Assembly: GCA_009823395.1 (NCBI GenBank)
Contig: CM020502.1
Coordinates: 15,023,444 to 15,087,443, forward strand
Length of the DNA: 64,000 bases
Direction: 5' to 3'
Source of the DNA: Thamnaconus septentrionalis
Lineage: Eukaryota > Chordata > Actinopteri > Tetraodontiformes > Monacanthidae
Shown here: positions 10,790 through 52,294 of the stretch, piece by piece
How positions within the stretch are numbered: position 1 is the stretch's first letter
How the letters are laid out: each line of letters starts with the position of its first letter
The notes under the pieces: model-generated
Told to the model about the DNA's origin: nothing
Database searches by the model: none
What the model saw: only the letters and a program-made list of their open reading frames with translations
Position numbers and translations under genes: made by a program

Positions 10790-13700
10790 TCACTCTGACA
10801 CAGTCATCTGCAAAATAGAAAAGTGTGGTGGGGAAGGTCTTTAATTTTACCTCCCTTTGTCCCGGGGTGAAGACATTGACAGTTGTCAAAGCAGAAATCA
10901 GAAAAGCAGAACGAGCACACGTGAACATGATGAATATTTCACCTGGGAGATGGAGACGCCGGTCAGCTTCTCCACCACATCGGGGACGCGGGTCATGATG
11001 TCCAGCACCTCTCCTGACAGCTTGGAGGCACCCACCTCCCCAGCTCCACTGGACACCATGGTCACCTTGCGGGCTGCGCACAGAGGCTTACTGATCTCCT
11101 CTGCCATCTAGTGGACAACAGATGTACACAAAAAAATGTGGAAAGCGTCAATCACTTGCTGTAAACCAGCTACCATTCACACCACACTATTGCGGCTTCA
11201 TACGCAAATCTAGACCACATGTGATAACTGTACAAAATGCATCTCACCATTTGGGTGTGATATCAACATTACTTTTTGTTATCAGTGGACAGAAGATTTT
11301 TTTCTGATGCCAATTCCAATTTCAAAAGATGCAAAAAGGTCACTGCTGACCTTAGGAAAAAAAAGTTGGTATAGAAAGAGAAAGTGTGAAATGCCAATTG
11401 GCATTTCTGTAAAGAAAAAATGCTTTCAATAGATTCAATATTTTGTGAACAGAAATAGGAGAATGCATTTTGAACCCACGAGAAACGTAATCATATAGTA
11501 CTATGCAAAAAACAAAAAAAAAACACGTGTCATTTTGGATGCAGCTCTGACCAAAGGAAGTTTCTCCAGCAGCATGTCCACCATGGCTCCATCCTTGTAC
11601 TGCTGGAAGGCCTCTGCCTTCTTTATCATCTGCTCTGCCTCAGCACGACCCTTGGCCTCCACTGCAAAGGCCTCAGCTTGTCCTTTCATCTGAACAAGAG
11701 TTTACGCAATCAATTAGTGGGGAAAAAAACAACTGCTGGACGAGGCCAGTTCTCATCTGAGACACTTACAATGTAACCACTAAAATCTCTAATGTTTTAC
11801 ATGTTCAAAAGTGAACCCAGCTGAGCGTAGGTACTGCTGATGACTCACCCTGATGGCTTCAGCTTCAGCTTCTGCCTCCATTATCAACTTCAGACTAGAG
11901 CCGAACAGAGCAGACAGGTGTTAGTTTAATGAACACTTCTGTATGATTTAACTATTGAAATATTTGATAGAGCTCATCTTAACTCTAGAAAGGTCGGCTT
12001 AGTAAAAAGTGTTAGAGACTTTTTCATGACGCATGGGCAAAATAAAAGTGAAACCGAGATGATACTGGGGTGATAAATGGGGTTCTTGAGACCCACCGCT
12101 GAGCATCGGCCAGTTTCTCCAGGCGGTACCGCTCGGCCTCCGCAGGCTTCTTCACCTTGGCTTCCAGCTCTTTCTCCCGACGAGTGATCTCCTGCTCCTG
12201 GAGCATGATTTGCTGCGTGCGCTCAACCACCAGGATCTGCATCTTCTCCTCCTCAATTCGCTGCTTTGTCTTTGCAACCTGCCAGCGACACACATGGCCG
12301 CTCAGGCGTTGCTCCCGATTCAACATCAAATCACATCGATCGGTAACTGTGCGCCTTCACGCTGTGGTTGGAATCCTCATTCAGTTTAATTAAAAAAAAA
12401 AAAATCAACCACCAATCTTTAGGGAGCGTGATTGGACAATGTTAAAAATACAACTAAACACAGACACCCAGGCTTTAAACCTATTCAGACAGAAAGGATA
12501 CATGAAACATAAGAAACCTAGAATTCACCCATTTTTGATTTTTATTTGCTGACGAGACACCAAGTGGCTGGACAGTAACATGAAATAGTGATTTTTTTTT
12601 TTTTCAGAGTGTGTACCTGTAGCTGGTAGGCCATCTCTGACTCCGCCTTCTTCGTGTTCACCTCAATGTCATAGGCTGCTTTTTTCAGCTCGTAGTCCCT
12701 CTGGGCCTTTGCCATGTCGATCTCATTCTTGTACTGAGCTGACACTTTCACCTGCATCGCGTGCGCCTCCTAAGAAACGAGACAGAAAGAGGAAAAAAAT
12801 AATAATATAAAAGAATTAGCAGGCACAAGTAACTTGACAGTAAGATTAAATAAGAGTTATAATTCCAGGTCGTTCAAATACTTCTAAAATATGCACTGCT
12901 CTGAGTTGATGACATGCAATAACATTGGTCTACTAATTTTGACCAAAGGCCACAATGGTGGCGTGGTTTCCCACAAAGGGTTGACTGGAGCTGTAAGCCC
13001 GTAACATTGCAGACTCATAGCACTACTATATTTGCAATGATGCAAAAATATATGTAAACTCACAGCTCTAGTTTGTTATGACACAAATCCTTTTAATTTA
13101 TAAGGTTAAAACACATTACTATGTTGATCAATTTTCAATCTCTTCAAGTGAAGTCAGTCACAAGACAAATATCAAATGCAAGTTATTACATTACTTTGTT
13201 CAAAATGTTTTTTAAAATGTTCTACCTTCTGCATGAAACCGTTTCGATTTTGAGATTTTGAATTTGTGGGCTTTATCAGATGACACATTTTAAAAATAAA
13301 CTCTGCTGCAGTGGAAACACTGGAATCTAGTGGTCATCATTATGTGGGTCACAATTAAACAACAAGGTTTGTGGGAGATAGAGTTGTGGGCAACATAAAA
13401 TACATCCATATGTGTCCCATTTATTTATTAATATATTTTACCGAGTAGGGTTGTTTCAAAATAGATTTGGAAGCAAAAATTTTCAAAATACTTAATTGCT
13501 CTATATCATAAAGTTCTGGGTGAAATGCACATGCAAAGGTTGTTTTGTACATTAGTGTGCTGAGATTTGTGCTTTTGATTTACTATCAAAGGAGGAAAAT
13601 ATGACAAAACACAAAAACGGCAAACGCTTCAAATACTGCTGCTGGTATAATTGGCCCAGAATTCCAAAATGAGGCCAAGTGTAATAACAAAACAAACCCC

Positions 13701-14527
13701 CCAAAAAAAGACAAGCACACCTCACCCTGATCACAGCGTCTCTCTTGTTCTTGGCCTCGCCAATGCGGGCGTCTTTCTGAACCTGGGCCGTGCGAGCCTT
13801 CCCCAGTGAATGCAGGTAGTCCTACGTACAAGAGGGCAACCACTCAGTGAACATCAGCCCCTCCCCCAGGCGTCGCCACGGTGAGGTGATGGCAAATTCA
13901 TGTGCAGAGCAGAACATTTAAACCACAAGTGATCGGCACAAAGATTTGTATACTTGTACACTTAATATAGTGCAATTTTGAGGACATGAGTTGGTTGACC
14001 TGCTCGTCGTGGACGTCCTTCAGAGTGTAGCTGACCACGCCGATGCCCATGTTGACCAGGTCGGAAGAGGCCACCTTGAATACCTGCTCCGAGAACTTCT
14101 TCCTGTCCTTGTAGATTTCCTGTGAGAGAAGGACGTGCATCGCAAACAGACGGTTTCATGAGAACACTGCAGTCCACAGCAGTGTGGTAAAGAAGCCGCC
14201 CGACCCGCCTGAGCCTGACCTCCACAGTCAGATGGGCGATGATGGCCCGCTGGTGGCCTTCCAGGGTCTCCAGGGCGATCTGAGCGATCTCCGGCTCCGA
14301 CTTGCCCATGAACATCTGGCACGCTGCGGCCAGCATCTGCTTGTTTTGACCCTGGATTTTCATCTGCACAAGACAGTTACTCCTTTATTACGGCATTCTT
14401 TACAATATGCAATTCTGCATTTTTTAAAACCTCAAATCTTCATTTTAATTATTCTTTTACTCTCTTTGCACTTTCTTATGAACTGATTGTGCAGCTGAGA
14501 AATTGAATTTCCTTCGGGATTAATCTG

Positions 14528-23183: not shown

Positions 23184-26100
23184 CTACACGTTCTCCTGCG
23201 CTGTTGAGTTGGACTTGTCCTCCAGCGGAGTGCTTTCAGCTGCAGGAGCAGCAGCAGGTGGCGCCGCCTCCACCAGAGGGACCTTCTCCTTCACTGGTGA
23301 GGAGGGGTGTGTTGCAGCTGCGCTGGCGCTGGGCGGCGGGTCCTCGACAGAGGAGGAGGTGGCCGCCGGCCTGCTGCCGAAGCTGTTGGCTATCTCCTCA
23401 AAGGTCTTGCCCCTGGTCTCGGGCACTTTGAGGAAGGTGAAGATGATGAAGATGATGAGGAAAGCAGTGAAGATGAGGAAGACCCAAGGCCCACACAGTT
23501 CCTGGGAAGAATAGAGATGGGTAATAATGTTTAATATCCCAGACTGGTAAACACACAAGATAATAAAAAGTTCGGATCAAGAATTGTCCAGCATTTTAGT
23601 GGTGATGGGCGATAACACATTTTTCAAATTCAATACGATAATCAATATTTTGTGGGGTTGATATTGTGATATCGATATCAATATCAATACACTTTTTGGT
23701 TTGTAATTTTTTTTTCAATACACATGGCCCTAAATATATTACAAAAAATTAAAAACAGTTCAAGAAAATGTTTACAGTGCAATACAATTTCAATATAAAT
23801 CATAGATAAGTAAAAAGTGCTATAAAATCTTTATCAAAAATAAATATGTGCTAAAAAAAATCCCTCAATATTTCCTTAAAATTATTGATACAAAATTGTA
23901 CTCTGATTAGCGATCGATATATCAATAAAAATATTGATATGCACGTCACTATATTTTAGGTGTTTCAAGAATCATTTTCTGCTGTAAAACAGCCGCTGTA
24001 ATTGCTCACCACTAGTTTCGGGAAGCTCATTCCGACGATGAAGTTGGACGTCCAGTTGCAGCAGCCCGCCACGGCCATGGCGGCTGGGCGGGGCCCCTGG
24101 GAGAAGAGCTCGGCCACTATGAACCATGGGATTGGACCGGGGCCCAGCTCGAACATGGCCACAAACAGCATGACAGCAGAGATCGCCACATAGCTCATGG
24201 CTGGCAAGTCTTTCTGCACAGATACATGGACAGGGAGGAAATGACATGTGTTCAGAATGTGTATTAACTGACATTATGTTGTAAAGATGATCAGTCTGAG
24301 GCAGAGCTGCTCTATAGCAGTGCGTAATAAATGTTCCAAAAACAAAGGCATAACAAAACAAAAAGGCTCGTTAAAGTGTTCAATCCAGACAAAATGCTTT
24401 TTGTTTCTGTTTGACAGTTTTGTTGCCTCCCAGTGGTGGCAGACTTCATCTACATGCTTGGTGTGTTACTAAGGAACATTTTTCTGATATTTGTATCCCA
24501 TCAGCTTTAATTTTAGAACCTCTACCAAACTACTGCATCATTTTTCTGGAATGCATGTAAATAACTGTATATATAATATAGTTTAACATCAAGAAAACAA
24601 TTATATATTTTTTCTTTTTTTGCAAAACAGTAAGTTTGAAAATTGAAACAATCCTACTAAGATTATAATGTAATTTGTGGCAGTGGTGACATAAACCTTG
24701 TACTGGGTGGTGGTCTAATAAATTTGGAAAGCATTGGATATCCAACCACGAGGATTTCCACTCACCAGCAGCAGAGAAATGGTCATGATCAGAGCGCTGA
24801 CTGCCATTCCGCTCAGTCCCAGAAGGTGCAGAGTTCTCCGTCCAGCCTTCTCCACCAGGAACAGCTGGCAAACACAAGATCGAGCGGTAAACTGCAGAGT
24901 TCACACTGAGCAAAACGCAGACACACGGGCAGCAGGTGACAGAGTGGCGACTCTCACAGAAACAACAGTGAAGATAGTGTTGACGACTCCGGCTCCGATG
25001 GTGGCGTAGATGGGCTGCTTCACCCCAGCTGAGTCAAAGATGCCAGTAGAGTAGTAGAACACCTGAGGACACAGACAGGACAGTCAGTACACAACATGGT
25101 GTCTGTATGTAGCTGCCTGACTTGGACTCTGACACTCAGTACTTCCTGATCATGTCGTAATGGACACACTTCATCAGATGAATTTCCATAGAGCCAAATA
25201 TTGCAATGAGAATTGGATTATATGTCCAAAGTGAATAAGAATGTTCCATGTAAACACCCACCTCTGAAGACAACAGGCCCATTTCTAATGGAAATGAATT
25301 TGGTTCCATTTGTTTGTTCCCAAACCAATCGGAAGTAAAATTGTCTCATGGAAACTGTGAAATGGAAAGTTGTGTGTCTTCACACTTGCAAACATGGAAG
25401 CCTCCAAACAGCACAGCAGCCTACACTGGAGTATAGAGTTTTTTTTATTAATTAAAAAGCTCAAAAGGCTTTTATCATATATTATAAAATCATTGCGCGC
25501 TTTGATTGTTGCAAAGCTTGAAATGATGACCTATTTAACAAATGTTCAGGTGATGATTTGATTAATCTGCACATAAGGCTGTAAAAAATCCTTTTGAATA
25601 AATTCTGCGACAATTTGAAAACACAATTGAATTTTTTGAATTTTGATTTCTTTTATTATTATTATTTTTCTTGGAAAATGTGCTTATAAGAGATTATTGT
25701 AAATTATATGTTTAGATTGGTTTTATTTGTGACAGTGACCATATTATGACTGTGGAGAGAAATTTTGTGCAACTTTCTTTCTTTTTTTTTTTTTTTACAA
25801 TTGTTAACATTGCCATGTGTTGGCGAGTGAATGAGTGTGTGACTCACAGCGTTGATCCCTGACAGTTGCTGCGAGAGCTGCAGCATGACGGCGATCAGTA
25901 GCGGCTGTCGATACGACGGCGAGCGGAAAAGCTCCACGATGGTGACCTTCTTCTCCGTGGCCATCTTGGCGCTCTCCTCCTTCATCTCCTGAAGGTCTTT
26001 ACTCACATCCTCAGTGCCACGCAGACGCACCAGCGCTGTGGACGGGACAATGGTCAGGAATAAAGTGGGATTTGTTTTCACGTCTAAACATCCAAGAAAA

Positions 26101-29100
26101 CACGGTGCACTTTACACAGGGCTTAAATGGTTAAATGTCATGTTCGTGTTTCATATGTTACATGCTTCATACATAATCTAAGATGTAACCTCACAAAACT
26201 TCATCTTTGACAGGTTTGTCAGACAACAGAAGCTATGATTCAGCTCTGGAGTTTAGAGTTTAGACTCGACTCCTGCCACAGGAGTCAAGTGAAGGAGAAG
26301 TGGGTCAATGCTTCAGAGTTCCTCCTGACAGGCTGCATGTTGTGCAGATGCCAAAACCTGCTGCCTGTTCAAGGACTCTCTCCCTCTCTCTCTCTCTCCA
26401 GGAAAAACATCAGACCTGACCCGCCCCATCTCACCGCTGTGTCTCCCTGAAATGGCTGATTCTATTCCAGCTTTCTCCTTGATCTTTTCTGTTCATTTAT
26501 TCTGCAGATCTTTTGACATCTTATAGTGTCTGGCAGTTTGACTCTCCGTGCATTCTTTGTTTTTTAAAAAAATCAAATACACAAAATAAGTATTTATTTT
26601 TATAGTTCACTGCTTAAATCATCTAGTTAACTTAAACTAAAATTGTTAAAATAGTAATATTATCAAGAGGTGGCTATTAGTCACTGATGTACTTGGACTG
26701 CATGTGTTCATAGATAGATAGAAACTTTATTGTCTGTTTTTCAGTAAAAAACAAACAAACAGAAATTGGTGCAATAAGAGACCTGTCCTCAAGATCTGTG
26801 TGTGCTACCTCCTGGATAATGGACTTTAAACTGTAATAGTGTTGGTATTAGCATTTTTTAACATCACAAGTGATATTTAAAACCCAAGAGAATAACCCGT
26901 TGATTGTTAGTAATTACTAGTGCAGAGAATGAGATTGTAGAAGTATGTGGCAGTAGAAAATGGTACGTTGCAGTTGTCTGTTCATACCTTTACATGCCTG
27001 CTCCTCCTGTTTAAGGTTGATGAGCAGGAAGCGAGGGCTCTCAGGACAGAAGGGCAGCAGGATGCACTGAAGCACAGCAGGGATGACAGTGAGGGCCAGG
27101 AGCAGGGGCCACAGCTTCTCTGAGCCCAGCAGAGCCTCCAGGCCAAAGATCTAAAGACAAGAACAAACCATCTCAAAGTGTTACTCATACAACATCGTTC
27201 CATTCAGAAATTTTCTCGAGGTAAGGAATTAAAAAGGTCAAGTGATTCAGGAAGTTTGGCGTCTTGTCACTCCCACTGCTGACCTGTGCAATCAGGATGC
27301 CCACCACCACGCCAAGCTGGTGGAGAGTGCCGAACGCTCCTCGCAGGGGAGTGGGCGACACCTCTCCCACGTACATGGGTGTCAGGCCGGTGAAAAGGCC
27401 GCAGAACAAGCCGATGACCAGGCGTCCAGCGATCACCATCTCATAGGAGGAGCAGATGGTGGAGAAGCCCATCAGGAGGCCGCCGATCACGGCCAGAATG
27501 TTCACCAGGAACATTGAGCGACGCCTGAGAAGGTGCAGAGAGGGAAGGAGAAGATAGACCTGTGAGGTGCTTTTAAACACAGTGCATATTCATTTTAGAA
27601 GTGCCAGAAATGTAAATAATTCACTCAACTTCATGGGCTGTTTTTGTAGTGCTATAAATTAATTTGCCTCCTGCAAGCCAATTAGTGTGTGTGGGAATGT
27701 GTTTCTGAGTACATAAAATAGAGAAACATTGGCTGTGTATAAAAGTGGATGGACAATCTGGTTTTAAAAAAGGATACCAACATGGAATTGCAAAAACCAG
27801 CGCTGCTGCAAACAAAAGAATGCATCATTTTTGGTCCCAGAGGTGGTTGCATTCTGTCAACTATCAATGCATCAACAAGCACCTGTACAAACTGGTTAAA
27901 GTGCTTTTGTTTGTCTAAGTCACTAGCAAATAAATCATTTAATTGAGCCTTTGATCCATTTTGCCTGATTTTGTATAGTCTACAGTCTCCAGGGGCTCCA
28001 GTTTAATAACCAAGTGTAGTCGGCTGACCTGGTGGCCATTGAGCTACACACTGCACTCTAATCATTGCCCACCTGGTAAACACACACCCAAATATGGAAC
28101 CTTAACATCTCAAAATGAACCGGAAACTCAAGGTGGTGCTGACCTTGAAACCAACCTTCAAATTAAAAAAAAAAAAAAAAATTAATACTCTATGAATTTT
28201 GACTCAATATTTCCCATAAAGGAAAACATTTATTGTCCAGAATCACAAGTGAACTTTTAAATATTATTTAAGAATATCTTACATGAATGAGAATATTCTC
28301 ACAAAGCCATCAAGATGAGGTGGAGAAAAGCCAAATGCATTAGCGTGTTGTTTCATAGCACACCAAACATTTTAATGGAAGTGGTTTTGAACAACATTCT
28401 CTCTTCAACATGATGCACAGACTCAAGCTCCCATAACTGCCAGTAGGAGTAAATGGCTCGGGATGATTCAGTCCAGCCACACAGGAAGAAAACAACAAGA
28501 AGAAAATACTCACAACATCCACACAAACACAACTCAGGTTGTGTAACTCCTAACTACAGAAGAGACACTAAACTCATTGAAAACCCGTGTTTCCTACCTG
28601 CCAAACCTGTTGGCCATGACTCCCACACTGAAGGATCCCACCATACCGCCAACGCTAAAGATGGACACGGCAACACTCCAGACAATTGTGCAAACTCCTG
28701 GGCTGATTGGCTGTCCATAACGCTCCATCCAGGTGTCGTTGAAGAAAGATCGTAGTTTCTGAGGGCATGGAAAGAGAAACAGTTCGGAAAAATATCTTTC
28801 TTTTTTCTTTTTCTTTCTTTCTTTTTTTTTTTTTTTTTTTTAAATCAACCACGTTTTATATTTGGATTCTTCAGATTTTGACCTTGAGCCCCTGGCTTCC
28901 ATTTGTGTTGTGGTCTCTCAAATTCTGACTGACCTGCTCGGGAGCATTGATGACTCCGGTGTTGTAGCCAAACTGCAGAGAGCCGATGACGGCGGTGCCC
29001 AAAGAGAACAGCAGGTAGCCGGTGACCTGCTTCTGCTGCAGGGAGAAAGAGTTGAGAGAACACGGGGAAGGAAAGGCAACAGGACAATGTCAGTGCAGAA

Positions 29101-41833: not shown

Positions 41834-42729
41834 CTGCCATGTGGCCCAAGCCAGTCAGAAATAGGCAGGATCGGATCAGTTGTGCACACGCAAATCCTGT
41901 GGTAAGCCACCGGTTGCTGAGAAAGACATCAGCATTACAGCCAGTGACATCCCGGGGAGCGACAGTTAACTTGGTCTCAGCGCTGTCAGGTGGCTCGTAG
42001 TCATCAGGAGTCCTTGACTGACATTGGGCCGTTCTTACATAACACCTTCAAAGATCAAATTATCCGCTTGAGCGTCGTGTGAAACGCAACGCTTGGTGTT
42101 GACTTGTACATTTCCAAAGGTGCAATTTTTTTACAGTTCGAAAGAACAAAGAACTCAGGAGCTTTACCTTTTTGAAGAGATCTTTCTACAAAAAAAAAAG
42201 CTTGTTGCCTGGTTTTCAATATGAAATACTAGTATAAAACAGCCAAAATTCCTCTTTACATTTTCTTTTAAAAAAGTTGTGCAACAGCATTACCATTTAT
42301 TACATTTGATTGTTAGCATATCAAATAACAACCCTCAAGCTTGATATTCCCATAGCATTGTTCATGCCGAATCCTTTGGGTTCACTGTTTTACTTCCTCT
42401 TCCAGACAAAATCCTATTAGGTTCCGTGGATCTTGCAGAACACCTTCAGCCACAACCGCACGTTCTACTCAATCCAAGAGCCGGCGCTCTTCGGAGTCTT
42501 CAAAGTCCTTCTGCAGACCAACCAGGAAGCGAGCGAGCATGCAGGCGGAGAAGGCCGACAATCCCAACTGAGAGGACTAATAAGTGTGCTTATCACAAAT
42601 CTGTTGTCCGTCTGCCACCCGTAGCTCAGCTGCTTCAGCGTTTGACACTATCTTGATGAAAATCCACATCCGAGCTGTGAGTTTGTTGTATCTCTCCACT
42701 AAAGTCCTGCAAAAACCTGGCATCCTTCC

Positions 42730-45700
42730 TCAGTGGCAGGGCTCGAAGGGGAACTCGGTGAGGCCTCCGTGCAGCTCCACCAGTTCCTCCGACCAGGACA
42801 TGACGTCACCAACCAGGTGGCTGCTGCACGTCGCTTGGCTGTAGATCTCATTGGCTGTCAGGACCCTGGACCAGAGCTGGAGGTCGGAGAGCTCCCCCGT
42901 GAAGGACTGGGTGACGTCGAAGCGGCCGCCCACCGAATCCTGCCAGAGCAAAGGAGAACCAGAATCAGTCAGGCTTAAATGTTTAGCAGATCTGGACCTA
43001 ACTCATTTATATAAACTGTGTTGTTTATGGTCACTTAATGCTCCTCTGTTTATCAGCAATGAGGTTAGCAGAGAGAATTTCTATTTGAGGGCACATTGTG
43101 AAGTGCGTTGAGGTGCAGAACCCTGGAAATATGAGTGAATCATCTGCATATTCTATAGTTGTTAGGAAATCTCAGGAAGCTAGATTATATCATTATAAAT
43201 GGTTGTTAAATGTTATAATTTGTAAGTAAACGAATATTGTTAAGTTGGGGGAGGACTAGATAAGCATTTGCTTCTTCCTATTCCATTTTGGACAAAAAAA
43301 GAAAGGAGAAGAAAAGGGGAAAATAGAAAAACATAATAAATGTTCATGTGTTCAAGCGAACACATGTATAGCCATGTGAATACTTGTCTGTGTGCTGTTT
43401 TCTGTTAACTATTTGTATTTATTTTGTTTACAGTATCTTGAAATTTTTATTTTGATGTTGTTTTTTTTTCCCCAATAAATCTTTCAAAATAAAGTTGAGA
43501 GGTTAGGTTTCATTGTCTGGCAGCAAAACATCTTTTGGGGGGCTTTTTCTTTTCTTCTTTACAAGACTAAATAAAGCTTGTAGCTTGACAGCTAACTGAT
43601 ATACACTAAGAGTCAGAAGTTTGGACACACCTTCACATGCACTGGTTTTTCTTTATCTTTACTCCTTTCTACATTGTAGATACATATTGAAGACATCAAA
43701 CATATGAACAATACATATGAAATTATTCAGCAAAGAAAACATTGACAAATAAATGCTTAATATGAAGGGGGGATATTTTGAAGAAAATAAAATATGAAAT
43801 GTTTTTGAGTTATGTCACACTTTTTTTGTTTACATAGTCATTAAAATGAAAGGAAAATTATAAAATGAGAAGGCGCACCCAAACTTTTCACTGGTAGTGT
43901 AAATCGTATACATCTGTCCATTAACTGCAATTCATGATGTTAACACATCAAGTAAAAGAAAATGAATTCTCTTCTAAACATTTCCATAAGTCTCATTAAA
44001 ATTGCTTTGCATGCAAAACACAGGCACCAAGTCTTCTTCAGGTGTTTTGCTCATTAACCAAAATTTCAAGACGTCTAATGAGTGCCTTTTTGGCAGCCAA
44101 CTGTGTGTCCTACCTGCTCCTGGCCCAGGATGAAGGTCCCTCCAGCTTTGATAGGGTGCCAAGACGACAGGTTTTGCCCCGAGCCTTTCTTCACCCCGTC
44201 CTGATAGGCCTCCCAGACGCCATCGCGTGTTGACCACGTCACGCACATGTGGTGCCACTTTCCATCTGTCATGGTAATGGGCAGCGTCACCGCCTAGAGA
44301 CACAGACACAGACAAGGTATAAATGCGGCATCAATATTGCAGATGGCTGTTTGGATATTTTGCTCCATGCTGGAAACTCCGGTCCTTCGTGAAGGGGAAT
44401 GAAATGTGGCAGATTTTGTGAGAGCATATGTTTTCATCGGCTGAATTAAACTGTTCAAAGCGTCTCTGAGAGCTGAAGCAGCAGCACAGCCTCAAAGAAG
44501 ACAGACTAGTTAAGCTGTCATTCAGAAAACAAAGCAGGAACAAAGTCTTAGACTGGAAGCTTTGTGTGCAAGTGCTTCCCAATGTTGGGGAGGCGCATTT
44601 GTCAAGCAAGATTGTCTTTACTCAGTTCACTACCAATATAATACAATCAGAGCAGTCCAGAGAATATTCAACTGTGGCACTGATCAGCGTTATGACAACC
44701 AAGTGAGGAACTGCCCATTAGACCAACCTCCCATTAGTCCGACAAACTTGCCCATTGGTCCGATCTCCCATTAGGGTTAGGGTTATGGTTAGGGTAAATG
44801 TTAGGGTTTGGGTAGGTCGGAACATTGTGCAATTTGTTGGACTAACGGGAGGTCGGACCAATGCCATGCTCCCAACCAAGTGTGTGACTAAAGACAAACA
44901 CACATGACATGACTTCCACTTATAATTAGGCCAATCAATTACAATAATCTGATTATTTGCCTGGTTAATTCACTTGTTGAACTCGCAGGACTGGGACAGG
45001 GAAGAGAAGAAGACGGGCATCTGTTTTCCATTTAGCAAAGTTTACGAGCCTTTCAGGGAAGGACGGATTAGCCTGGCTAATTACATGACATTTTTCTGCC
45101 AGAAATCTGAGAACTTGGTAAATAACTCTGTGAAGGAGAGCTTGAAGTCAAGAAAGTTGACGTTTGATGAAATGACATGGAGAGCAACGAGAATTACAAT
45201 TACACAAACATGTTGGGTGCACACAACATGACAACATGCAATAGTTCCATACAAGCCATGATTGACCCGTATGGGGCACAGAAAGAAAAAAACAAAGCCT
45301 CAACATCCTCACCAGCAGATAGTGTTGGCTTAATGTCATCGGCGAGATTTACCTTGTCGTTGATCAGCAGCTCCATGGGGTTGCTGCCCCATTCGATAAG
45401 CACAAGCTCATTGGCTTGTCCTGGTACGGCATAGGAAAACGGAGTGCCAAGGCCAGGGCCCGATCCGGCCTTCACCCAGAGGCAGATTGTCAGGGCAAAG
45501 AGCTCGTTGACGATTGAGCGCTTCATCCTGCCATACATGTAGTTGGTTTTCATGGGAAAGTCAAGCAGGAAAGCGCTGGGGCTCTTGAACTTCTTGTGAT
45601 TACCTGGTGACATCAATGGATTTGGGTTAGATTCCGCTGTGTATTATTGGGTTTGTACAGAGGTTTTTGTAGCTACCTCTCAACTTCTCAACTCTCTAAC

Positions 45701-48700
45701 TTGTAGCTAACATACACCATTTGTACTAAACTAAAATATTTTATGTAGTACACACACATACCTTTTTAAAAGCATAGTTATAAAAAAAATTACTTTGAAC
45801 TCAAGAAATATAACCTCATTTGCTCCAACTCCCCCATTACCCAATAATACATATACAAATAAGTGCAGTTTGAACTTAATATTCTTATTCTTGCCCTTTG
45901 GCAAAAATCCCAAAATTTAGCAGTTGAAAATCTGCATGGCATTTAAGTGCTGACCTTCCCTTTCGTTTGTCTGAGATGTCAAGTCAAGACAGGTAGAATA
46001 AGTTAATCAAATAAACAACCAAACGAAACGATTCTAGGATTCCAAGTTGGGCTGCACGCTTTGTCAATGCTGACACTAACCCTTGAAGTGTTCCAACTAG
46101 ATGATGTGTACTTTTACAGTTGAAAACATGGCAGAAAAAAGGGTATGAAAGTCACTGTTTTCTCATGATCCATACAAATGATCGAGTATTTGCATTCTGA
46201 GGATTATACTCTTATTGAAAAAATAAGTGTGGTCTTTAATGTTTTAGACAATGAGGTAAAAAATACAGTACCATTGTAACCATTAAAAGCCACAACACTG
46301 AAAGAGTGGTGTCAATTGAAGAGTATGGTTCTCACTTTACCTCCCTACTGTGACAGGAGCTGCGTTTCCATGAATTCAAAGAATTGCGCAAAACCTAAAT
46401 ATGGCAATAAAAACTGGTAATGGAAACAGCTCAACTTGGAAAAACCTCTCAAATATGGCTAAAAGGTTTTGATGATCTCATGAGGTGGTTTTTCACACGT
46501 ATCCATATAGAGGTATATCGCAAAAGTGTCATGGAAACATTTTTTTGTCATTTACACGTCAGCGATGTGACGTACTGGATCAACTGACCAGTTCAATGAC
46601 CAGTGAAAATGGTGCATTATGATTGGACAGAGGAGGAGACAGAATATTTTTTACAAGTCATCAAAGACAAAAACATAAAATATAACAACCGCAGCAAAGA
46701 AATGTAAGCAAACAAAAGCAATTGTAATTCTTGTAAAATCTTGTGGAACGAGATTTTAGGAGAATTATGGCTTATACGTCACACCACTCAATGTAAACAC
46801 CTGCAAAACGCAATTGTACTTTGTTGTAGTTTTAGACATATCGCTTTTATTTTGTGAAAAACTGTCATAGAAACACAGCTGGTGTCACTCCAAAGGTGTG
46901 GCGGGAATATGAAGAATGATGTACCACTCCAATGAGTGGACAAATCCAAACTATTTTTCTGAATATTCACTCATCATTTGTTAGCAATTGACAAAAAAAT
47001 CTGTAATGATGGCTTTTGATGAGTCCATTGGTGAAAACACGTTGCCCATTTCTACAAGAGCCAGCAGTGACATACGTATACTTGAGCCTCAGCGTTTCAC
47101 TGACCGTGTTCTGTGTTGCTGTGGTGCAGCTGGCCGAGCACTGTTTCCAGTTTGCTGTGTCCCGTGCCGTGTACACTGGAGTCTTTGCTGATGAAAGGTA
47201 GCCGCCGAGGATGATACTCGTTGCTGTGATGGTTGTCGTGGTTGTCAGAGCCATGGTGGTCATCATGGTGCCCGTCGTGGTGGCCATCGTGGTGCCCTTC
47301 GTGGTGATCATAGTGGTGGTTATCGTGACGGTCACCGTGGTGGTTGTCATGGTATCTTGAGCCATGATAGTAGTGGTGGTCATCATGGTGGCCACTGTGA
47401 TGACTGGTATCGTGGTGGTCATCGTGGTGGTCATCATGGTGGCTATTGCGGTGGCTATCGTGGTGGCTATCTTGGTGGCTGTCATGGCGGCTATCGTGGT
47501 GGCCATCGTGGTGGTCATTATGGTCGTCATGGTGGTCATTGTGATGGCTGCCAGAATGTCCATAATGCCGGCGACCATGCGAGTCGTAATGGTAGTTGGG
47601 ATGATGACTATAGTGGCCTCTGTGATGGGTAATCCTGTGGTTGCCGTTATGGCTATTATGATGGTTGTCGTGATGGTCATCATGGTGGTCGTCGTTATGG
47701 CCTGTTCCGTGGTGGTCGTCATGGTGGTCATCGTGGTGACCGGTGCCACCGTGGTCGTCATGGTGGTCATCGCGGTGACCGGTGCCATGGTGGTCATCGT
47801 GGTGGTCATCGTGGTGGTCATCGTGGTGACCGGTGCCATGGTGGTCATCGTGGTGGTCATCGTGGTGGTCATCGTGGTGGTCGCTCCCGTGGTGGTCACC
47901 GTGGTGATCGTTGTGGTGGCCATAGTCACGGTGCTCGGTGTAGTAACTGTGCAGTTGCTCCTCAAGGGCGGTGATCTTTCGCTGGAGGAGTTCTCTCAGC
48001 GAGCTGGAGTACGAGCTGGAGGAGTTCCTGGCCTGCAGGTAAAACACAAATATCGACAAAGAACTCTCACAGTGAGAAATGGAGGGCTCTCTCCACAATG
48101 TTGAAATAGTCAACAAATAATGATAGGTTGAGCTAATGATAGGTTGAGCTGACTGAGCTGACTTTCTGAGAAAATAGTCTTTCAACGCTCCTCAAAGACA
48201 GTAAAAAGTAAAAAGGACACATTTGATTTGATTTATTTTATGATAGAGAAGCGGCTTACCTTAACTATGATACCAAATTTAAAAAACAAAAAAGGGATTT
48301 GTGCAAAACCAAGTAATGTTACTGACATATAATGACATATTATATTAATTACAAACAAATGATTTTTACAAAATACAGAGACAAAGGGGCTTGAGGGAGG
48401 AATCTGTTAGTGTTCGTATAGAGATCATAAGGAATAGAAAGTGGGGGTAGGAGTACACGACGAGTCAAAAGTTTGGACACACCTTCTCATGGAATTTAAT
48501 TTTTTTATCTTTACAACCTTTTCCACTGCAGATAGATACTGAAGAAATCAAATATATGAGCAAGATATATGTAATTATGCAGCAAAGAAAAACAAGTTCA
48601 ATAACTCTAAATATGCTATTTATGAAAGGTGGCCATTTTGAAGAATTTAAATATAAAAGTTATTTGACACTTTAATTGTTTCCTACATAATTCCATGTGT

Positions 48701-50932
48701 TTTCATACGTAGTTTTGATGCCTTCAGTGAGAAACTGCAATGTCAATAGTCGTGAGAATGAAAGAAAAGACATTAAATTCATAGGGTGAGTCCAAACTTT
48801 TGACTGGTAATGTATATAAGTTTTTACTTCTTCCTACTCCTTTTCGAGCATGTTTGATTTAATTTATTTTTTCTTATATTTGCTCATTAGCCTTTTATTT
48901 CTCATTATTATTAATGTATTTTGTTTGTTTGGTTTTGATTTCACTATTTACATATTTGAAATAAAGTTTTCAAAACAAATAATAAAGAAAAATGACGAGA
49001 TGACATTTAAAGTTGCCGGTGAATAGTCTCCCCCTCCTGTTTTCAAGTCATCCTTATCCTCGTCTTCCTCACCAGCAAATCCGGCTTTGTTCCCTGCCAG
49101 CGCACGCCACGATTAATAGCCTCGTCAGGGAGGATGAAGCTAATTGAAGATGAGGTTGGCTAGCGCCTTTTGGCTCACTGCCACAGGCTGGTGGCGTAGA
49201 CATCCTGTTAGTGAGGGAGGTAACGGGGAGGTAAATCCTGGCTCTGCTTCTGTTTTGTCTCACACCTTTGAGGGAGATTGAAGGGGATTTCTGGCAACAC
49301 CTTTCTGTGCGTGACCCAAGACCACCTGATAATGAGGCTTTCACAGGCCGGCGGGCGGCAGGGAGTTAGTCTCGCAATGTGACGACAGCGTCATCAAATG
49401 TTGGGGAAATAAGTGAGACAAGAGGTCCTCGCGTGCCTTTTGGTCTTAGAAAATATATTATTGTTGTATGTATATATTTTTTTAATATGTTGTTAATATT
49501 ATCTTTCATGTTCCGTCACGCTCTAATCCTCCTGTAAGCTCCTTCTTTCTCACTATGTCATGAGAAAATGACAGGGGTCATTTCAGGTTGGAGGCATTTG
49601 TGCATCACGTGTGCATCGCACATCGATGCACAAGACATACATACAAAACATATAATTTTGTTACTATAATTGTCATTGGTGCATGTTTAAACTATGAATC
49701 ATATGAAAATCAGCTCTGTGGTAATATTTTCTGTAATATTTCTTACGTTATGCTCACTGAATATTTTGTGACTAGACTGAAAAAGACACGCTGGTCATTA
49801 AAATAGAAATACATATATTATAATAGGACAACCACGTAAAGTTTGCGTCAAGAAAATAAGTTAGGCATCAACAGTGATAATGTTTCCATGTGTGAGAAGA
49901 GTGTTGCACAAAGGAGTTAAACTAGGGTTAAAATCAAATCACTATTGATCACAGGTTCTGATGGAGGGATCACTTTGCTTAAGTTTATGGTTTGAGTCTG
50001 ATTTTGATGATACTGATGTTCAAATGTTCTTCATATGTTATCGTTAATTCCATTCAGCCGAGGTATTTGTCTTGGTCTCGAATATGATGTATCAGCAATG
50101 CCTCTTGTTTTTGACTTTAAATGTCGACGACAATCTTTCTTTCATGTGTAATGCAGCTTTTTTTTTTTTTTTTACCCACCTGCAAGTTCTCGAGCCTCTC
50201 CTTTAGGGTTTGCAGCGTTTTGCCAGTCTGTTCAGGCGAGAAGGAGCTCCCATGCGACGAGCCCTTCCTGTGATAGGGATCCGACCTGTGGCTGCCATGA
50301 GAGTAGTGGTGGTCGTTGCTGTGATATGCCGAGGGCCCATGATGCGATGACCCGTGGTGGGTATCATGGTGGTTGTCGTGATGGTTGTCATGGTGGTTGT
50401 CGCGGTGAGTGTCATGGTGGCTGTCGTGATGGTTGTCGTGATGAGTATCGTGGTGGTTGTCGTGATGGCCAACACTGTGGTGACCGCCAAAGCCCTCGCA
50501 CAGCGTCAGCTTGGCAGTCAGCTCTCTGATGGTCTCTCGCTGGTCCAGTATTGTCTCTTTTTGCCTCACAAGACTTTCACGCAGGTGCAAGATGGTCGCT
50601 TTGGCCTCGTCAGACATCATGCCCCGCCGGGTGCCGGCATTTGGGCCACTGCTGTGACCATTGGTGGCTGGTCCATGGGGCACACTGGGCGGAGAATAGC
50701 AGCTAGGGTCTGCCTCTGGCGGTATCGGAGTGCAAACGAATTTGGGGCTAATGCCATAGTCGTATTCTATGCCAGGCAAACTACCTGCCGCTGCGGCACA
50801 TGATAGAAATGAATAAAAAACTAAAGACCCTAAAGGGGCAAAGGGGAGGAAAAACCCCAGAGAAGCCCCTACCTTGTGTGGGTTCATTGCTACCAATGAC
50901 ACGGGGCCCACAGGACTGACGTCTCTGGCCAT
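42730..50932 (-). CDS. Neuronal pentraxin with two long His/Asp-repeat insertions
   Basis: Five coding exons: 50180-50932, 47105-48032, 45353-45603, 44114-44293 and 42730-42939, joining in frame to 773 residues (NPTX1/2 are about 430, NPTXR about 500). Order: hydrophobic segment at about 22-49 (signal peptide or signal anchor); FVCTPIPPEADPSC; first coiled coil ending ETIRELTAKLTLC; His block 1 (151-227); second coiled coil (TLQTLKERLENLQ, then LRELLQRKITALEEQL); His block 2 (285-525); KLETVLGQLHH; pentraxin domain from about 563 to 770. The pentraxin signature H-x-C-x-T-W-x-S is present (HMCVTWST), as are TNYMYGR, GTPFSYAVPGQANELVLIEW, LGQEQ and the C-terminal cysteine pair. The start at 50932 has A at -3 and G at +4; Met16 (50887) gives a cleaner signal peptide. 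Family role: secreted or membrane-bound synaptic protein that clusters AMPA receptors. NPTX1-like is the nearest relative by eye; the paralogue is unresolved. Confidence 0.88.
43601..43902 (+). mobile_element. Tc1/mariner-like MITE, copy C (pentraxin intron 4)
   Basis: Left end AGTCAGAAGTTTGGACACAC and right end with inverted ACCAGTGAAAAGTTTGGGTG. The interior is shared with copies A and D. Confidence 0.75.
44723..44866. repeat. Palindromic repeat with telomere-like core
   Basis: CATTGGTCCGATCTCCCATT near 44752 recurs inverted at the right side, and an ATTAGTCCGACAAAC arm is also mirrored. The centre is GGTTAGGGTTATGGTTAGGG-like. No ORF. It lies in pentraxin intron 3. Confidence 0.65.
46358..46880 (+). 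mobile_element. 520-bp MITE, copy 2 (pentraxin intron 2)
   Basis: Begins AGCTGCGTTTCCAT, ends with AGAAACACAGCT inverted. Same orientation and nearly full-length similarity to 29887-30404, with small indels. Confidence 0.8.
47211..47933 (-). repeat. Coding His/Asp repeat, block 2 (pentraxin exon 2)
   Basis: In-frame array built on the 12-bp unit CACCACGATGAC (His-His-Asp-Asp) with variants HHDG, HHDS, HHDN and HHGTG spacers. About 241 residues, roughly 98 of them His by hand count. The first third is highly regular; the centre is more diverged (for example THHRGHYSHHPNYHYDSH) before regular HHD units return. Non-coding frames also stay open because the unit is a multiple of three without stops. 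Confidence 0.9.
48453..48814 (+). mobile_element. Tc1/mariner-like MITE, copy D (pentraxin intron 1)
   Basis: Left end AGTCAAAAGTTTGGACACAC; right end is its inverted form (CCAAACTTTTGACTGGTAAT). It is the best preserved of the four copies. Confidence 0.8.
50252..50482 (-). repeat. Coding His/Asp repeat, block 1 (pentraxin exon 1)
   Basis: About 77 residues (151-227), about 30 His. Units are HHDN, HHDT and HHDS, then a diverged tail with SHGSHRSDPYHRKG. It directly follows the conserved Cys of the first coiled coil and precedes the second coiled coil. Confidence 0.88.
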
Positions 50933-52294
50933 AGTCGGCCTCGGTCAGAGTTATTCCTTGACAAACAAGAGTCCGCCCTGGCCTTAGCTCTCCTGTCGTG
51001 ATGAGCACCATGAATGGAGGTCACAAGACTTGGACTGGAAGGCGTGAAGCCAACGCATGTCAAAATTTCAGACAGATTCCCCTCCCAGACAGCATTCAGT
51101 CCCTTTCAGAGCGGAAACGAGCGCAAACTCCAGGGCAGAATTCCTGATGGTTGCCAAATACTTGTCCTGCGAAGCAACCCTGTGGTATCACGCAAGGTTT
51201 CTTGGCTCCATGGCAAGTTAGCAACCTGTGAGAGACGAGCTTATGTATCCTGATAGCTCCTTTAGCTGTCTCAGAGGAAGAGGCGTTGGGCCTCCGCCAG
51301 CCAGGTGATCTCTCTCGGCTCCAAGGACCTCCTGTGTTTCGACAGCCAAGTGTAATCCCTTTAACTCTTGCTTCTAACCTTGCATCAGGTGACTGAGTGC
51401 CTTTGCCTGCAGGACAGAGACAGAGAAAGATTCAGCAAACAATATACAGAGTTATAAAGTCCATAATTGAGCTTGTGATGTCAATTATTATATTGGAGAA
51501 AAAAAATGTTTCTGTTTACATCATTAATAACACTGAGACTGTGAAAACGAAAACTGCAGCTTCATTTTCAGACGCTGACACATGCAGAAGAAATCTAGAA
51601 AATAAAGGCGTTGATAAACTGATTGAAAAGAAACATCCCTAACTGTATTGACTGTAATTGACTGTCTTCACACTAAGTGTTGGTTGGGGTATGCTGAGAC
51701 TGCAGCAGACACACATACTGGCGTTGACTGCCAATTAAACCACCCCCAACACCACAGCCAGGCAGTTCTCATAATGAAGGCTGGTGTTATTTTCCAGACA
51801 GACAGAGTTGAGCAGCCCAGACATTCACACGGGGGTCTCATGAATCAGTCTCAGAGCTCACCGCCCTCAGGAAGCATTTTCTGTTTGCTGTATGCGGAAA
51901 AAGTACAGTGGAGACAAATTGAATGTCCCTGAAGATTTAATCGCTTACCTTAGCAAAAACACTGCGCAGCTGTGTGTCTCTTGTACTGTATGAAACCGTT
52001 CAAACAAATATCTCTTACAGGCAAAACTATACTGTAGTGTACTTGTCCATATTTGTATCTATGTATATTCAGATTTGGTTGTTTTACAGTTACATCTTTT
52101 CAGAATTTGAAATCCCTTGACATCTGTCATTTTCTTGCTGGGGTGAAGAACTCAACAGCTTGACGCAAACCACAAAAATACATGATAACTGGTGTAATTA
52201 CAATGTAGTACCAAAGCTATGGAGCCTTTCTGAATGAAAACTGATGGAAATACATTGCCAGCTAGATAGATAGAGGAAGGAAGGCCTTGTTGAC

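Follow-up and report, generated by a model that had tools for sequence, protein, structure and literature searches.

An oligomeric stalk is the means by which neuronal pentraxins gather AMPA receptors into clusters. In outline, these proteins are described as consisting of a first coil (coil 1), a second coil (coil 2) and a pentraxin domain, where the three cysteines of coil 1 are thought to form disulfide-linked oligomers, and coil 2 alone gives rise to trimer-based oligomers, with calcium promoting the formation of higher oligomers (PMC12799932). In zebrafish, nptx1l is described as a neuronal pentraxin-like gene that is expressed in the cranial ganglia and the spinal cord (PMC4690400), and it resembles the gene reported here in being a fish gene of this kind. 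Among the matches listed, titles and abstract openings describe no His-rich neuronal pentraxin, subscription journals and sequence databases being outside the scope of that search. The window analysed here, which is the whole 64-kb stretch of DNA (64000 bases), carries on its minus strand an intact gene, probably of a teleost fish as judged from its letters, for a presumably secreted neuronal pentraxin; His-His-Asp-X repeats take the place of, or lengthen, two parts of its stalk. We are highly confident that the gene exists as described, that is, as a neuronal pentraxin with two in-frame His/Asp blocks (Table 1).

An earlier, sequence-only reading of this DNA had claimed a neuronal pentraxin gene of five exons in one continuous frame, and this is borne out by the present analysis: the gene runs from 50932 to 42730 on the minus strand and encodes 773 residues in a coding sequence of 2322 nt (including the stop codon), with all four introns bounded by GT/AG and in frame. 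The span given for it in that reading, 47105-50932, covers exons 1 and 2 and the intervening intron; the gene itself continues to 42730. Splice sites were scored in bits per site, with donor and acceptor summed for each pair, using a crude textbook matrix, by which the four annotated introns have donors of 6.2-9.8 bits and acceptors of 4.5-9.9 bits, and sums ranging from 10.7 bits (intron 2) to 19.7 bits. The first ATG of exon 1 is found at 50932 and a second in-frame ATG at 50887, and a hydrophobic, signal-like stretch, recognised by eye, occupies approximately residues 21-49. Strong internal splice-like sites are present near this stretch (50784-50872), including a donor at 50872 (8.9 bits) and an acceptor at 50829 (9.3 bits), and because of these sites confidence in the model is lowest at the 5′ end of the coding region.

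Table 1. Positions of the exons and His/Asp blocks of the neuronal pentraxin gene within the window.
Feature	Position	Strand	Content
Exon 1	50180..50932	-	hydrophobic, signal-like stretch; coil 1 and its three cysteines (67, 78, 145); His block 1; beginning of coil 2
His block 1	50252..50482	-	residues 151-227; 30 His and 11 Asp of 77
Exon 2	47105..48032	-	remaining coil 2; His block 2; residual end of coil 2
His block 2	47211..47933	-	residues 285-525; 98 His and 56 Asp of 241
Exon 3	45353..45603	-	start of pentraxin domain
Exon 4	44114..44293	-	pentraxin domain
Exon 5	42730..42939	-	end of pentraxin domain and stop codon

Other features of the window include sugar transporter exons on the minus strand at 23184-27589, where three open reading frames match PF00083, a C2H2 zinc-finger exon at 655-1026, and open reading frames at 12024-14384 that are flotillin-like by eye only and have no Pfam match. 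An imperfect interstitial TTAGGG telomere-like repeat of 7.2 copies lies at 44771-44813, within intron 3.

The assignment to the neuronal pentraxins is carried by the C-terminal domain (residues 571-772), which matches the solved structures of NPTX2 and NPTX1 at 300 and 298 bits, respectively, with the next best match at 100 bits. A Pfam search of the protein returned PF00354 at 116 bits (cut-off 25), and only Pentaxin and Laminin_G_3 were found in this search, the domain make-up of histidine-rich glycoprotein (HRG) not being encountered. Over 200 positions aligned with the human sequences, the domain is 60.5% identical to that of NPTX1, 59.5% to NPTX2 and 52.5% to NPTXR, whereas the three human domains are mutually 64.5 to 70.0% identical (70.0% for NPTX1 versus NPTX2). 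With NPTX1 and NPTX2 closer to each other than either is to this domain, the gene is probably a separate neuronal pentraxin paralogue. It has in common with NPTX1 (NP1), NPTX2 (NP2/Narp) and NPTXR the pentraxin domain, the three stalk cysteines, coil 1 and the GQEQD motif, and it differs in carrying 318 residues in two His/Asp blocks, in the interruption of the second coil and in lacking the second stalk sequon. The earlier statement that it keeps every mark of a neuronal pentraxin goes too far with respect to the second coil and the second sequon.

Aligned with human NPTX1 and NPTX2, Cys 67, 78 and 145 match the stalk cysteines, the second of them being shifted by a few columns. Block 1 sits between the two coils, separated from Cys145 by five residues. 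Block 2 starts directly after residues 263-284, within coil 2, so a continuous second coil is not found, and a short remnant after the block aligns with the end of the human coil 2. By a simple heptad score, coil 1 and the first part of coil 2 stand above most shuffles (their scores being reached by 47 and 20 of 1000, respectively), the second part of coil 2 does so less clearly (113), and neither the remnant that follows block 2 (312) nor block 2 itself (811) does. The NSS sequon at 254 is retained, and a second one present in the stalk of human NPTX1 and NPTX2 is missing.

The limits that had been proposed for the blocks (residues 151-227 and 285-525) agree with ours, and the earlier figure of roughly 128 histidines proves to be exactly 128 (30 + 98), to which are added 67 Asp (11 + 56) and only 14 Lys/Arg. 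Their description as arrays of His-His-Asp-X is accurate in parts, with 30 exact HHDX units in 13 distinct DNA forms, and less so for the middle of block 2, which is degenerate. Position X is usually filled by Asn, Thr or Ser in block 1; in block 2 the usual residues are Asp, Ser, Asn, Gly or Thr. His never occurs more than twice in a row, and in block 2 the gaps between His reach four residues at most. At the nucleotide level, the window contains 24 matches to CAYCAYGAYNNNCAYCAY versus 0 expected (the largest number in 100 shuffles being 0), of which 17 lie in exon 2, seven in exon 1 and none elsewhere, the two exons making up 1681 of the 64000 bases.

The repeat structure raises the main rival to a functional reading of the blocks, namely that a 12-base minisatellite expanded in two permissive coding linkers and was tolerated there, length and composition mattering little, so that the protein would work as a normal neuronal pentraxin whose spacer is longer and whose histidines have no role. 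A tandem repeat with a higher-order unit of 51 bases (3.4 copies, 89%) speaks for this explanation, as do the perfect 55-base repeats within block 2, which indicate recent expansion as would be seen for a neutral minisatellite, and the location of block 1 in a stretch that is poorly conserved between NPTX1 and NPTX2. It is less readily reconciled with the restriction of the same His-His-Asp pattern, within the 64 kb, to two exons, or with the position of block 2 inside a coil whose other parts are retained. As to one block being a copy of the other, their closest 36-base match (32/36) equals the best within block 1 (32/36), and block 2 contains a perfect one. The possibility that the repeat is part of a mobile element was rejected: within 42700-51000 the sole other family of direct repeats of at least 60 nt is a 138-nt pair located outside the exons. 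The members of this pair (43602-43739 in intron 4 and 48454-48591 in intron 1) are 80% identical, and by eye we take them to resemble a short non-autonomous DNA transposon of a type common in fish.

That the frame stays open through the arrays says little about coding, since a repeat of period 12 leaves several frames open; here it is also open over 342 aa in another frame of the minus strand and over 247 aa on the plus strand, and the open frame was discarded as proof. Changes of register within the repeat were located with a nucleotide model that has no knowledge of codons, at jump settings of 0.0001, 0.001 (strict) and 0.01 (loose). In block 2, all register changes are in whole codons at the settings of 0.0001 (8/8) and 0.001 (9/9), with all bases in the annotated frame; at the loose setting of 0.01, whole-codon changes account for only 8/22, with 93.5% of the bases in frame. 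The core of block 1 (156-198) shows zero, zero and two register changes at the three settings, and neither of the two is in whole codons. The decay of CpG at His-Asp junctions is silent in 12 cases and converts Asp to Asn in two (p 0.013), which is not what a tolerated minisatellite would lead one to expect, and silent C-to-T changes in His codons number 41 versus 13 Tyr codons in all (p 0.0002), while C-to-T changes outside CpG are silent in 21 cases and replacing in 13 (p 0.23), these p values being optimistic because the repeat units are not independent.

Comparisons of repeat pairs that are blind to register are mixed. In block 1, third-position mismatches lead at all three cut-offs; in block 2, first- versus third-position mismatches number 7392 versus 6091 and 2640 versus 2416 at the looser cut-offs, and 716 versus 815 at the strictest. 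A register-based count of transitions gave a stronger contrast (76 at third positions versus 39 at first and second positions combined, with 10 versus 14 for transversions, p 0.39) than the register-free C-to-T counts above, which are weaker and mixed, but it does not serve as main evidence, its register having been picked to fit His and Asp. The signs of selection at the codon level are moderate and mixed, which speaks for a tolerated minisatellite. On all these lines of evidence together the blocks look, tentatively, translated and moderately constrained.

A further explanation, that one or both blocks are removed by splicing and the main protein is a shorter pentraxin, appears improbable. 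For block 1 there are two in-frame internal pairs, 50872 to 50228 (sum 14.7 bits) and 50569 to 50228 (sum 11.4 bits), that outscore the annotated intron 2, and both would also delete the third stalk cysteine, the 50872 to 50228 pair deleting all three; removal of this block is judged unlikely for that reason and not from the scores. For block 2 an acceptor-like site exists at 47187 (6.9 bits), yet the best in-frame pair adds up to 6.6 bits, less than any annotated intron, and the best pair in any frame (11.3 bits) breaks the frame. All of these scores come from the same crude matrix.

Retained in the protein, the blocks should be disordered polyampholytes, as predicted from their composition; a search of solved structures for any resembling block 2 returned 0 matches up to E = 1. 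The blocks contain 94 His(i)-His(i+4) pairs, compared with a mean of 50 and a maximum of 62 in 500 shuffles, and pairs with this i/i+4 spacing on a helix can bridge a metal. Summed over independent sites with a His pKa of 6.3, the net charge of the blocks is +57 at pH 5.5, +31 at pH 6.0, -5 at pH 6.5 and -46 at pH 7.4, the sign being reversed between pH 6.0 and 6.5 in this independent-site sum. The sequence-only reading had gone on from the gene to its chemistry; the intact gene with its two in-frame His/Asp blocks stands, and the binding of metals and protons by the blocks is plausible, as suggested by composition. In the test tube, the spacer would very probably bind metal. That metal or pH has a physiological role is less likely than not, and the buffering or sensing of synaptic zinc proposed in the earlier reading is a hypothesis.

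Two His-rich proteins of other families offer analogies. In HRG, a cystatin-type architecture is combined with a His-Pro-Gly repeat. Histidine-rich calcium-binding protein (HRC) is a luminal protein of an intracellular store in which His is mixed with acidic residues, including long Glu/Asp runs, and it has no pentraxin domain; His together with acidic residues is common to HRC and the pentraxin described here, by analogy only. The resemblance to HRG lies in a disordered, His-rich tract in a secreted protein, with Zn2+ binding as the feature of HRG, whose His-rich region is described as binding several zinc ions, becoming compact and gaining affinity for heparan sulfate (PMC5988744). The unit here, in contrast, is His-His-Asp-X and is set in a pentraxin, so that the analogy is one of chemistry and not of kinship.

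This chemistry also suggests that, near neutral pH or with zinc, the spacer might serve mainly as a polyanion/polycation switch towards matrix, binding heparan sulfate proteoglycans and anchoring the pentraxin in the manner of HRG (PMC5988744), zinc sensing being secondary. Reports that glycosaminoglycan binding by a worm protein carrying a His-rich tail requires zinc (PMC12238268), and that a glypican drives the release of NP1 (PMC5663462), lend themselves to such an anchoring role. The blocks, however, contain few basic residues and sum to a strongly negative charge at pH 7.4 without zinc, and therefore should repel heparan sulfate; we give this explanation little credence.

The reading that we favour is that of a real pentraxin whose stalk would be a metal- and proton-responsive spacer, a statement that, taken whole and on the evidence of the letters, falls somewhat short of an even chance, and about as likely is the tolerated minisatellite. 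Under the responsive-spacer reading, coil 1 would still join the subunits into disulfide-linked oligomers and the pentraxin domain would still bind AMPA receptors, with the His/Asp stretches forming a long disordered spacer that may bind Zn2+ or Cu2+ and protons. Such a spacer would be positive in the acidic secretory vesicle and negative in the neutral cleft, and zinc may compact or cross-link it, so that zinc or pH could tune the reach of the receptor-binding heads and the tightness of their clustering, or their sticking to polyanionic matrix. Synaptic vesicles, at pH 5.3-5.7, are reported to acidify the cleft, where protons exert their effect via a histidine of the N-terminal domain of GluA2 (PMC11479944), and the same domain is named as interacting with neuronal pentraxin (PMC12422955). 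The charge sums, the His pairs, the behaviour of HRG and the acidification of the cleft lead us to propose that zinc and pH govern how charged and how compact the spacer is, and in this way adjust the clustering of the heads; the synaptic role of the spacer is an inference. Ca2+ or plain spacing could instead be its relevant property.

A more specific version, which is rather unlikely, would have a metal- and proton-gated spacer condensed and positive inside acidic vesicles, open and negative once released, and then cross-linked by synaptic zinc via His(i)-His(i+4) ladders, with AMPA-receptor clustering set by local zinc and pH and not by a fixed coiled-coil length. If the responsive-spacer reading is true, it would tie an extracellular organiser to the zinc and acidity of the synapse, and this natural stalk variant would provide a ready-made test of whether the length, stiffness or charge of the stalk controls receptor clustering.
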